Source of the DNA: Coriobacteriia bacterium
GTDB lineage: Bacteria > Actinomycetota > Coriobacteriia > Anaerosomatales > Kmv31
Assembly (NCBI GenBank): GCA_014859305.1
Contig: JACUUM010000026.1
Span: forward strand, 1-35,648
Reading direction: 5' to 3'
DNA: 35,648 bases
Positions 22,999-26,489 of the stretch are shown piece after piece. The position numbers and the translations under genes were made by a program. Within the stretch, counting starts at the first letter, position 1; every line of letters starts with the position of its first letter. The notes under the pieces were generated by a model, which saw nothing but the letters and a program-made list of their open reading frames with translations, was not told the origin of the DNA and did no database searches.

Positions 22999-24531
22999 TC
23001 ACCCCCCGGCGGCCTTCCGCTGCGCGGGTTCCCACGGCACCTCGACGACTTCGACCTCGCCGGGGATGTTCTTCAGCTCGTAGGAGCCCTTCGGCGCCGT
23101 CGCGGGCGCTCGTCGCCCGGCGTGCGCGACGACGTCGGCGCACGCGAGGATCTGCCCTCCGTCGGCGAGGTTCATCACCCGGGCGGCCTTGTTCAGGCCG
23201 CTTCCGATGAAGGGACACCCGCCCCTGTCCAGCACGACCTCGCCGAACCCTATGCCGATGCGGATGAGCATCGCCCTGTCACCCGAGTTGGTCTCGTTGT
23301 ACGCGTCGAGGGTCTGCTGCATGTCCACGGCCGCATGCAGGGCTGCGACGGGGTCGTCGAATGCCGCGACGAGGCCGTCGCCGCCGGTCGACTTGCCGTG
23401 TCCTCCGTGCGCGGAGATCACCGGCAGCAGCAGATCGCGGTGGCGCTGGATGCGCTTGGCCGACATCACGCTCCCGTCCTCCTCGGTCATCGCCGAGAAC
23501 GCCTTCATGTCCGTGATCAGGACCGCACCCTCCATGGTGTGCTTGGCGGCGAGCTCCTCCTCGGCGCTGGCGATGACGCGCAGCAGTTCGTCGACGTCGG
23601 CGTCCTCGGCCTGGATGCCCGTCAGCGGCGGCGCCTCGGGCTCGGGCACCGGCAGCGGCGGGAAGAGCCCCTCGAGGGCCGCGCCCGCGAAGGCGGCGAC
23701 GGCGGCGGAGGTCAGCGCCGCGGGGACCAGGACGCCGGCGGCGAGCGGCGAGCCGAGAGCGCGCAGGGCCATGCTTCCGAGGGCAACCACGACGACGCCT
23801 CCCGCGGCGGCGGACGCCGCAAGCGCGACCCTGGCGGCTCCGGCCTTCCCTGGGAGGCGTCGGGCCGCCGTGCCGGCCACGCCCGCTCCCGCCGCCCACA
23901 CGAGCGGCTGCAGCAGCAGCACCGGCAGCGGGGAGGCCGACTTGAACGCGGCGACCGCCCCGGCCGGGTCGGCGGAGCGCAGCGACGACGGCAGCCACGA
24001 GAACGTCACGGCTCCCTCGGGCGCCTCGGCCAGTGTGAGCACCGCCGTGCCGCCGCCTGTGGCGGTGGCACCCATCGCGGGCACGCCGAGCACGATCCCC
24101 GTGGCCTCGAGCACCGCGCAGGCCACGAGGGTGGCGACCAGGCCGTCCGACGCCCCGAGGACGTATCCGGCCATGGCGACGACCGCCCACTCGAGCTTCA
24201 GCAGCGACGCGATGAAGGCGAGCACGACGACGACGAACGGCCGCGCGCCGTCCCCGCCGAGGTATCGGACCGCGGCGAGCCCGACGACGAGGAACGCCAC
24301 GCCTACGATCACGTCCTCCGCGATCAGCGGGAGCGACAGCGCGACGACGAAGGCGGCGACCCCGATCCGGGGGGAGAGCAGGCCGAGGGCGGCCACACCC
24401 GCCGCCACGGCCAGCCGGAGCGGCGCGGGGAAGAACGGCGCCCGCGAGAGCGCCGCGGCCGCGCCGGCCAGGAAGGCCGCCGCGCGCATCCATCGGAACG
24501 CACCGGAGTAGCGCCTTCTTCCCCGATCCAT
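22999..24531 (-). CDS. membrane-anchored class III nucleotide cyclase domain protein
   Basis: A 510-residue protein. The first 320 residues hold about eight to ten hydrophobic helices; the last 190 form a class III adenylate/guanylate cyclase domain. Visible motifs: the first metal Asp in VLITDMKAFS, the second in GGDGLVAAF, RIGIGFGEVV, and GLNKAARVMNL with the transition-state Asn and Arg. Two positions deviate: the substrate Lys before the second metal Asp is shifted by one (GKSTGGDG), and the residue that usually selects ATP or GTP appears as Pro in CPFIGSGLN. The ATG at 24531 has GGAGG upstream, and it follows the DUF3307 gene by eight bases on the same strand. Catalysis is therefore plausible but unproven. 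Confidence 0.82.
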   Translation of the reverse strand: MDRGRRRYSGAFRWMRAAAFLAGAAAALSRAPFFPAPLRLAVAAGVAALGLLSPRIGVAAFVVALSLPLIAEDVIVGVAFLVVGLAAVRYLGGDGARPFVVVVLAFIASLLKLEWAVVAMAGYVLGASDGLVATLVACAVLEATGIVLGVPAMGATATGGGTAVLTLAEAPEGAVTFSWLPSSLRSADPAGAVAAFKSASPLPVLLLQPLVWAAGAGVAGTAARRLPGKAGAARVALAASAAAGGVVVVALGSMALRALGSPLAAGVLVPAALTSAAVAAFAGAALEGLFPPLPVPEPEAPPLTGIQAEDADVDELLRVIASAEEELAAKHTMEGAVLITDMKAFSAMTEEDGSVMSAKRIQRHRDLLLPVISAHGGHGKSTGGDGLVAAFDDPVAALHAAVDMQQTLDAYNETNSGDRAMLIRIGIGFGEVVLDRGGCPFIGSGLNKAARVMNLADGGQILACADVVAHAGRRAPATAPKGSYELKNIPGEVEVVEVPWEPAQRKAAGG

Positions 24532-24539
24532 CTTTCCTC

Positions 24540-25259
24540 CTAGAGGTACCCGAGGGAGACGGCCGCCGCCACGGCGGCCACGAACGCGTAGGCAGCGGCG
24601 CACAGCAGCAGCCCCGACACCGCGATCGTCACCTGGCGGAGACGGTCGCGGGGCTGCAGGCGCAGCGCGGCGAGGGTCCGGGGCAGGAACGGCAGCGCGA
24701 GCAGCGCCGGTCCGGCGAGCAGGGCGGCTCCGAGCGAGGTCCCGCGTTCGACCATCCCGAGCAGCCGCGCGGCGTCCAGCGGCAGGAGCGGCTCGTCGCG
24801 CGCTTCAGCCGTCTCGGACGCCTCGAACACCAGGATCGACCCGAAGAAGACGACGGTCGCCATGGCGGTCACGGCCGCGAGGCGCGCGACGTCGAGCTGA
24901 TACCCGAAGGTCGCCGGCTTCACGGAGACCTCCGTGCCCAGCATGAGGACGGGCGGGACGAGAGAGGCCAGGTGCAGCGCCTGGTCGAGACCGAAGACGA
25001 ACAGGCCGCGCGCCGCGCGCCCGCGACGCGCGTGGATCGTGACCACCTCGATCAGGAGATGGGCCGCCGCCACGTACGCCACCACGCGCCACAGACTCGC
25101 CAGGTCGCTCACCAGGACGGCGGCCGTGCAAGCAGCCACGACCGCCACGTGCCCGAGTAGCCCCGCGAGCCGGTTGCGCTTCGCCATCACCAGGCGTCCG
25201 GGCTGGAGCACGAAGTCCCCGAGCACGTGCCCGAGGAACATGTTGAGATACAGGACCAT
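24540..25259 (-). CDS. DUF3307 family membrane protein
   Basis: A 239-residue integral membrane protein. The N-terminus shows the DUF3307 pattern: LGHVLGDFVLQPGRLVMAKRNRLAGLLGHV, split as a His/Asp-containing helix then a second His helix. About six further hydrophobic segments follow. The function is not known for the family, although the conserved His and Asp look like active or metal-binding residues. The ATG at 25259 has GGAGG five bases away. It is first in a two-gene minus-strand operon with the cyclase and divergent from the cNMP-binding protein, so a part in the same signalling is likely but inferred. Confidence 0.7.
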   Translation of the reverse strand: MVLYLNMFLGHVLGDFVLQPGRLVMAKRNRLAGLLGHVAVVAACTAAVLVSDLASLWRVVAYVAAAHLLIEVVTIHARRGRAARGLFVFGLDQALHLASLVPPVLMLGTEVSVKPATFGYQLDVARLAAVTAMATVVFFGSILVFEASETAEARDEPLLPLDAARLLGMVERGTSLGAALLAGPALLALPFLPRTLAALRLQPRDRLRQVTIAVSGLLLCAAAYAFVAAVAAAVSLGYL

Positions 25260-25294
25260 GCCGCCTCCCGTACCGGTCGCAGCCGATTGTGACA

Positions 25295-25324
25295 CTGACG
25301 GCCCCTCGCGTCTTGCTATAGAAT
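25295..25324 (+). promoter_or_regulatory. possible promoter for the cNMP-binding protein
   Basis: CTGACG (25295-25300) and TAGAAT (25319-25324) are 18 bases apart in the 109-base divergent region. A shifted -10, TATAGA (25317-25322), overlaps it. The position, 45 bases before the start codon, is reasonable. Confidence 0.4.
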
Positions 25325-25368
25325 CGACGCACGAGGGCCGGAGGATGAGAGGCGAGGAGGCGCGCCGC

Positions 25369-25782
25369 ATGGGCTACGAGGAGTTCCTCGCCCAAGTGCC
25401 GCTCTTCGCGAACTGCTCGCCCGAGGAGATCGCCGCGATCGCGGCGATCTCCCGGCAGGACTCGTTCGAGCCGGACGAGGTCATAGTGACGCAGGGCACA
25501 CCGGGACAGGCCTTCTACCTCATCCTCTCCGGTCGCGTGGAGATCCTGCGCGACGAGTCCTCGTTGGGCACGTTCGGTCCGGGGGACTTCTTCGGCGAGA
25601 TGTCCCTTCTCGACCAGGCGCCTCGCTCGGCCACCATCCGCGCCTTCGAGCCGACGACGTGCCTCATGCTGGCGGCGCAGGACCTGCGGATGCTGCTCGA
25701 GAGCGTCCCTTCGATCGCGCTGAGACTGCTGGAGGTGCTCTGCCGCCGGTTGCGCGTGACGGGTGAGCGGCTGGGACAATGA
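25369..25782 (+). CDS. stand-alone cyclic nucleotide-binding domain protein
   Basis: A 137-residue protein made of a single CRP-type cNMP-binding domain with no DNA-binding helix. The phosphate-binding cassette is well preserved: FGEMSLL (75-81) and PRSATIRA (85-92), with the Glu that binds ribose and the Arg/Ser that bind the cyclic phosphate. The N-terminal helix PLFANCSPEEIAAI and the beta roll (VIVTQGTPGQAFYLILSGRVEI) are typical. I chose the ATG at 25369, with GAGGAGG eight bases upstream; the ATG at 25345 lacks a usable site. It lies divergent to the cyclase operon and probably reads its product by protein-protein contact. Confidence 0.85.
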   Translation: MGYEEFLAQVPLFANCSPEEIAAIAAISRQDSFEPDEVIVTQGTPGQAFYLILSGRVEILRDESSLGTFGPGDFFGEMSLLDQAPRSATIRAFEPTTCLMLAAQDLRMLLESVPSIALRLLEVLCRRLRVTGERLGQ

Positions 25783-25829: not shown

Positions 25830-26489
25830 TTGAGCGTACGCGAGGGGAGCGGGCTCCTTCACGCGGTCGCGGAACGGATCGTGGTGCGTTACCTGGAGGA
25901 ACGCTACGGGGGCCAGGTGGCGGTGCTCGACGGGTCGCGAGAAGGGTGGCTGACCGCGGTCGACCTCAGCTACACCGGCGGGGACGGCGCCTCGCCGGAT
26001 ATCGGCGTCAAGGTCCAGGCGGACGCGTACTGCGGTACGGATCTCGAGAAGGCGGCCGACCGCTCGCTGGTCTTCTACCGGCCGGCGTCGAGTTCGTACG
26101 CGTTCGAGACCGTCTCGGACAACCGCACCGGGGTGCCCGGCTGGATGTTCCGCTCCACGGCCGAGGAGCTGTTCTACTACAGACTGGCCATCGCTCAGCC
26201 CGAGGACGAGGTCTCCACCCTGATGTCCGAGCCCGACGCGGTGTTCTTCTCGGAGCTGGCCGTCGAGAGGGACGAGCTGGACGTCCTGCCGATGGCCGCG
26301 ACACGCGAGTGGCTCCGTGCGAACCAGGACCGCTACGCCTCGCGCCCGGTCGCCGTCGGTGACCACGCGTCGTGGGTGCGGCTGGTGCCGCGCCGCGACG
26401 TCTCCTCGGCGGTGTCGGGCATACGGTTCGAGGGACCGGTCTTCGGGTCCCTCGGCCCGACGAGACGGGGCGACCCCCGCGGCGCGTAG
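25830..26489 (+). CDS. protein of unknown function, possibly PD-(D/E)XK-like fold
   Basis: A 219-residue soluble protein I cannot assign. Visible features: an N-terminal helix (AERIVVRYLEERYG), then PDIGVKVQAD (56-65), AFETVSDNRTGVPGW (91-105) and AEELFYYRLA (111-120), then DVLPMAATREWLRAN (151-165). The order Asp...Val-Lys...Asp...Phe-Glu...Pro-Gly-Trp...Phe-Tyr-Tyr recalls restriction-endonuclease-like proteins seen in phages, but the usual acidic-x-Lys is IGVK here. The start is TTG at 25830 after a run of Gs; no ATG or GTG fits better. It follows the cNMP-binding gene by 47 bases and could share its transcript. The C-terminus is Arg/Gly-rich. Confidence 0.6.
   Translation: MSVREGSGLLHAVAERIVVRYLEERYGGQVAVLDGSREGWLTAVDLSYTGGDGASPDIGVKVQADAYCGTDLEKAADRSLVFYRPASSSYAFETVSDNRTGVPGWMFRSTAEELFYYRLAIAQPEDEVSTLMSEPDAVFFSELAVERDELDVLPMAATREWLRANQDRYASRPVAVGDHASWVRLVPRRDVSSAVSGIRFEGPVFGSLGPTRRGDPRGA

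Follow-up and report, generated by a model that had tools for sequence, protein, structure and literature searches.

What could a membrane-bound nucleotide cyclase, a membrane protein of the DUF3307 family and a stand-alone cyclic-nucleotide-binding (CNB) protein be doing side by side among housekeeping genes? We analyzed this trio in a 35,648-nucleotide window (the whole stretch of DNA examined, contig 26 of a 2.13 Mb assembly) from a Coriobacteriia bacterium of the order Anaerosomatales. A sequence-only reading had proposed that the genes form an inserted signalling unit. Its core, a functional module, is strongly supported by synteny, by co-loss controlled for phylogeny and compared with a control gene, by a decaying receptor in one genome, and by recurrence elsewhere. 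The notion of insertion did not survive.

Gene order and co-loss across the Anaerosomatales

Gene calls, Pfam and PDB matches confirmed the three genes at the positions first given, as follows, with the minus-strand pair divergent from the gene for the 137-aa CNB protein.

22999..24531, minus strand: membrane class III nucleotidyl cyclase (P0001), 510 aa, from PDB cyclase matches, the AF2 model and orthologues of full length throughout the order (37 aligned)
23641..24531, minus strand: N-terminal membrane domain of the cyclase, about residues 1-297, about 8 membrane helices, from the AF2 model
23038..23550, minus strand: catalytic domain of the cyclase, about residues 328-498 (the last ~170 residues), from structure matches and alignment
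24540..25259, minus strand: DUF3307 membrane protein, 239 aa (PF11750)
25260..25368, unstranded: divergent promoter region between the DUF3307 and CNB genes, with a conserved ATTGTG-type element at 25286-25291
25369..25782, plus strand: stand-alone CNB protein, 137 aa, without an output domain (PF00027)
25588..25638, plus strand: phosphate-binding cassette of the CNB protein, FFGEMSLLDQAPRSATI, residues 74-90, from the alignment of orthologues
25830..26489, plus strand: conserved 219-aa protein (the fourth gene), family not assigned, used as adjacent control and outside the module

The DUF3307 gene lies 8 bp upstream of the cyclase gene, and the two are probably co-transcribed. The divergent region showed no enrichment of the CRP-type operator TGTGA-N6-TCACA. 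As the earlier reading held, the surroundings are conserved housekeeping genes: cysS, rlmB, yacP, sigH and tRNA-Thr on one side, and tRNAs and tuf on the other. The fourth gene, which sits between the CNB gene and the tRNA cluster, matches no Pfam or NCBIfam model.

The same gene order recurs throughout the order (sigH - tRNA-Thr(TGT) - [cyclase - DUF3307] - CNB - fourth gene - tRNA-Tyr/Thr/Met - tuf), which is the conserved neighbourhood that was to be looked for in relatives; DUF3307 also recurs with CNB proteins and cyclases beyond the order. Protein identity across the order is ~38-50% for the cyclase, 39-47% for DUF3307 and 54-72% for the CNB protein. The arrangement must be old because the proteins have diverged that far, and it is far beyond chance because it is found in dozens of genomes at ~45% protein identity. 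We rejected a recent insertion or inserted island, since the locus is syntenic order-wide and the only alternative state seen is loss. From the sequence comparisons, the locus is best regarded as ancestral and vertically inherited with loss.

The cyclase is present in all 40 genomes with the CNB protein and in all 33 genomes of the order with DUF3307 (both tallies count the window's genome). We built a tree of 53 genomes of the order from cysS, rlmB, sigH and yacP (quick IQ-TREE run) and examined independent pairs in which one genome has the cyclase and the other lacks it. Across the 10 such pairs, the CNB protein changed in the same direction as the cyclase in 8-9 and in the opposite direction in none (p 0.004-0.008), and DUF3307 did so in 7 and none, respectively (p 0.016). 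The fourth gene, which is equally near the CNB gene, changed with the cyclase in only 2 of the 10. Its membership in the module was considered and rejected, as its loss does not track that of the module and it is kept where the module is gone. At eight loci that we fetched (G042, G055, G058, G061, G063, G006, G019 and G068) the trio is absent and the fourth gene comes immediately after tRNA-Thr. The trio is contiguous, so a single deletion can remove all three genes.

Partial losses were also found. G056 has lost the cyclase and DUF3307 and retains, of the CNB gene, a truncated remnant with a frameshift (residues 45-85 and 111-135), from which we conclude that the receptor decays once its producer is lost. 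Two genomes (G045 and G048) keep DUF3307 and a cyclase with an intact active site and have lost the CNB protein. Relocated cyclases without CNB or DUF3307 occur in G040 and, as an additional copy, in G027. Ten genomes retain the cyclase and lack DUF3307, and in several families DUF3307 is missing while both the cyclase and the CNB protein remain. Neither partner is therefore obligatory to the cyclase. The presence of CNB and DUF3307 depends on the cyclase, and not the reverse.

Predicted active and binding sites of the three proteins

The Pfam Guanylate_cyc model scored below threshold on the cyclase (E 0.0095); solved class III cyclases matched it with phmmer (E 6.6e-16 for 3mr7). The AF2 model of the full protein has a mean pLDDT of 90, and its catalytic domain aligned with chains of Ma1120 and Rv1900c in the PDB at TM 0.85-0.89. 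The protein has the fold, the metal-binding aspartate pair and the transition-state Asn and Arg of a class III nucleotidyl cyclase, and the residues concerned (D341, D385, N447 and R451) are invariant in 37/37 orthologues.

The base-selecting positions differ. In Ma1120, adenine is selected by K101 and D157 (PMC4215837). The corresponding positions here hold Ser381 in 31 orthologues and Pro in 6, and Pro440 in all 37. In these 37 sequences we found neither the Lys and Asp (or Thr) signature of ATP-specific adenylyl cyclases nor, at the Lys position, the Glu of guanylyl cyclases. As the adenine-selecting Lys/Asp pair is lacking, neither cAMP nor cGMP can be assumed as the product, and the atypical base pocket leaves room for a non-cAMP signal. 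The same positions vary widely among other sampled class III cyclases in the phylum; the Ser/Pro and Pro combination therefore proves neither inactivity nor an exotic nucleotide.

The N-terminal membrane domain matches no Pfam family. It occurs elsewhere fused to GGDEF (G399) and to tandem AAA+ domains (G371, where AAA+ was read from the sequence), and because of these fusions we regard it as a transferable module. Compared with class III cyclases that carry membrane domains, the window cyclase shares the catalytic fold, the aspartate pair and the transition-state Asn/Arg but differs in its base-selecting residues (Ser or Pro with Pro instead of Lys/Asp) and in an N-terminal domain that lies outside Pfam and is also found on GGDEF and AAA+ proteins.

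The CNB protein scored 84.3 bits against PF00027 (cut-off 27.5) and has the Glu and Arg of the phosphate-binding cassette. Gly76, Arg86 and Ser87 of the cassette are conserved in 32/32 orthologues and Glu77 in 30/32. No helix-turn-helix (HTH) match was found and the protein ends at residue 137, so it does not qualify as a member of the CRP/FNR family. The original description of an intact cassette with no DNA-binding domain was thus accurate. The CNB fold and the cassette are common to the CRP/FNR and PKA-type domains, whereas the window protein is a single domain without HTH, kinase or channel. An output-less, stand-alone CNB protein that is present only where the cyclase is present is an unusual receptor design.

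In CRP, Ser128 contacts the base (PMC11224242). The equivalent residue is Asp in 31/32 of the CNB orthologues and Gly in the window copy. Asp is also found at this position in the DUF3307-adjoining CNB proteins of other lineages, and the CRP-like factor of the window's own genome lacks it. We considered this Asp as a sign of cGMP and rejected it, because it also occurs in CNB proteins paired with canonical adenylyl-type cyclases.

The DUF3307 protein is a member of its family above the cut-off (PF11750, 53.8 bits against 23). Residues D15, Q19, H37, H67, D92, Q93, H96, E171 and R172 (window numbering) are invariant across lineages, and H11, E146 and R165 are nearly so. Judged from this conservation, they suggest a polar or metal site in the protein interior more than a plain anchor. 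The predicted model is mostly helical (pLDDT 92.7, pTM 0.89), and no solved structure in the PDB matched it (best E 0.33). In the full-text literature searched, a single paper names the family and no function is described.

DUF3307, cyclases and SatD in other lineages

We found DUF3307 in 15/397 sampled genomes of the phylum. Outside the order, in two genomes (G363 and G324; loci L182 and L185) it accompanies an AAA/TPR-cyclase and a 143-aa CNB protein, in G121 (L184) a CNB-cyclase fusion and a 139-aa CNB protein, and in G343 (L181) a GAF-GAF-HD protein and a 122-aa CNB protein with no adjoining cyclase. At all four loci, the gene for DUF3307 comes immediately after that for the CNB protein. 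The genome G363 is that of Candidatus Subteraquimicrobium carltonvillense (Actinomycetota). SatD neighbours DUF3307 in G097, G100 and G111. No cyclase, CNB, GAF-HD or SatD gene adjoins it in G075, G231, G260 and G277, where the DUF3307 matches are mostly low-scoring or partial.

A scan of named genomes with a narrower DUF3307 alignment, covering a small sample of other phyla, returned 13 loci. Two were those of G363 and G121 again, ten others had a cyclase or SatD-like gene adjoining or one gene away, and one Clostridia locus had neither near DUF3307. CHASE2-cyclases lie beside DUF3307 or one gene from it in Desantisbacteria and Omnitrophota. SatD or SatD-like genes accompany it in Clostridia, Polaribacter, Sphingobacterium, Flavobacteriales, Aeromonas, two streptococci and Anaerolineaceae; some of these matches are below the Pfam cut-off, and those of Sphingobacterium and the second streptococcus were judged by alignment only. 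The paired SatD and DUF3307 genes of Bacteroidota, Firmicutes, Aeromonas, Anaerolineaceae and other Coriobacteriia often overlap by a few bases. At the base-selecting positions, the five DUF3307-linked cyclases from other lineages all carry the canonical Lys and Thr.

The N-terminal domain of SatD matched a diverse class III cyclase profile with an hhalign probability of 94.5 (E 8.2e-8, score 51.8), whereas no unrelated profile scored above 18.6 and none of 30 column-shuffled profiles above 14.7. Three features line up in register: the first of the metal aspartates, the GDE/GDG turn and a strand with R-x-G-I-G. The match to a narrow, order-specific cyclase profile (A1) was weak, and the SatD profile found class III cyclases in the PDB at E 0.02-0.8 only. 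On this good but not final evidence, the domain seems to be remotely homologous to class III cyclases. The transition-state Asn is absent from the conserved columns of the SatD alignment (A7); we therefore do not claim SatD as an active cyclase, and it may not be one. The SatD-DUF3307 pair resembles the window trio in placing a cyclase-like domain by DUF3307 and differs from it in that SatD has no membrane domain or CNB partner and, in several members, an HTH-like C-terminus. In the window, a true class III cyclase takes the place that SatD has in that pair.

We lean, if only slightly, towards the view that cyclase-fold proteins of different bacterial phyla share DUF3307 as a general membrane partner, be it as regulator or as output. 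These cyclase-fold proteins would be class III cyclases of membrane, TPR, CNB and CHASE2 types, joined in some lineages by one-domain CNB proteins, and elsewhere SatD, which would be a distant, so far unrecognised member of the class III cyclase fold.

A proposed signalling circuit and its alternatives

We interpret the locus as probably an ancestral cyclase-receptor module for a cyclic nucleotide. The membrane domain of the cyclase would sense something in or across the membrane and drive the catalytic domain, in the cytoplasm, to synthesise a cyclic nucleoside monophosphate, which the diffusible one-domain CNB protein would read locally. Because it lacks an output domain, the CNB protein must act through another protein. 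It would then most likely bind either DUF3307, as the output or regulator in the membrane, or the cyclase, as a form of feedback. DUF3307 is the first candidate, because the CNB protein is output-less and DUF3307 comes directly after it at four other loci. In this circuit we infer the enzymatic activity, the identity of the nucleotide, its binding by the CNB protein and the physical contact with DUF3307. A CRP-like regulator with an HTH encoded in the same genome (L161) could also read the signal.

A possible, though rather unlikely, alternative places DUF3307 on the input side. There it would sense a membrane or extracellular condition (or transport or modify a ligand) and set the activity of the cyclase membrane domain, and the CNB protein would be a buffer, feedback element or relay to a soluble target. 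This would suit the 8-bp spacing and probable co-transcription with the cyclase, the pairing of DUF3307 with several cyclase or SatD types where CNB is not always present, and its absence from several families that retain the cyclase and CNB protein. However, its position directly after the CNB gene at L181, L182, L184 and L185, in the first case without an adjoining cyclase, favours a role on the CNB side.

It is doubtful that the cyclase acts alone through CRP-type transcription factors, with CNB and DUF3307 as syntenic hitchhikers lost in single contiguous deletions. The HTH-bearing CRP-like regulator, the CRP-sized CNB proteins in genomes without the module, and the relocated cyclases without both partners are consistent with it; yet the equally near control gene was retained in 8/10 independent losses, the CNB gene is decaying in place in G056, and the DUF3307-CNB-cyclase association recurs at unrelated loci. 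A degenerate cyclase that senses nucleotides without catalysis is more improbable still. Both adenine-selecting positions are indeed replaced in 37/37 orthologues, but the same sequences keep both metal aspartates and the transition-state Asn and Arg without exception, such replacements are common among the sampled class III cyclases of the phylum, and the linked CNB protein retains its phosphate pocket. A Pycsar-type anti-phage system, which likewise sets a cyclase (PycC) beside a CNB receptor (PycTM or PycTIR) and gave weak PADLOC matches here (PycC on the cyclase, E 7.6e-6; the CNB part of PycTIR on the receptor, E 4e-20), is hardly credible and was rejected, as the PycTIR match spans only the generic CNB domain, the single-domain CNB protein has no fused TIR or TM effector, the cyclase is membrane-bound, and the locus is not mobile, being at a fixed housekeeping location and inherited vertically with loss rather than hopping between islands.

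The cyclase-receptor module is built from parts of known kinds. The searched literature held nothing on gene neighbourhoods of stand-alone CNB proteins with cyclases, and the cyclase-CNB-DUF3307 association, with the light it sheds on DUF3307 and SatD, appears to be new in that literature. The association is also more general than the single-locus observation from which it started. DUF3307 spans several bacterial phyla and includes members in streptococci, flavobacteria and Aeromonas. Its tie, together with SatD, to nucleotide-cyclase signalling suggests a direct, testable role and is the first concrete functional lead for DUF3307. If true, both families would move from unknown function into nucleotide signalling.

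The divergent intergenic region and module loss

An ATTGTG(CATGAA)-type element was found in the divergent region between the DUF3307 or cyclase gene and the gene for the stand-alone cyclic-nucleotide-binding protein (CNB) in 20 of 28 genomes, against 0.30 expected. It is possibly a promoter or operator.

25286-25291: element copy in the window, with equivalent sites in other genomes

Between the CNB gene and tRNA-Tyr lies a gene conserved across the order (25830-26489, plus strand). Its 219-residue product, which gave no match to Pfam or NCBIfam models, is kept in genomes that have lost the module. In genome G056, the CNB gene is a frameshifted remnant (L150:1753-2415), and the cyclase and DUF3307 genes are deleted.

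Other CNB and DUF3307 matches

Away from the module, genomes of the order carry a second gene for a stand-alone CNB-type protein, with PHP-type and aminotransferase-like genes nearby.

L143:5091-5543; L144:5521-5973; L146:5273-6184: second CNB-type protein

The start of an ORF in G075 (L099:7237-9543) matches DUF3307 weakly and only in part (residues 3-75), and the rest of the ORF matches AAA_11/AAA_12 helicase and DUF2726 models. This joining may be an ORF-calling artefact.

The cyclase and its membrane domain

Relocated cyclases in two genomes adjoin neither CNB nor DUF3307 genes.

L065:508-2037: relocated copy, G040
L086:9157-10695: relocated extra copy, G027

By profile comparison, the N-terminal domain of SatD (PF16264; L196-L204, P0005-P0007) appears distantly homologous to class III cyclases; several SatD members have an HTH-like C-terminus.

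The cyclase's N-terminal membrane domain, for which there is no Pfam entry, also occurs in other fusions.

L209:265-2400, minus: fusion with GGDEF, G399
L225:1444-4122, minus: fusion with putative tandem AAA+ domains, G371

Given the GGDEF and apparent AAA+ fusions, this domain is a transferable membrane module.
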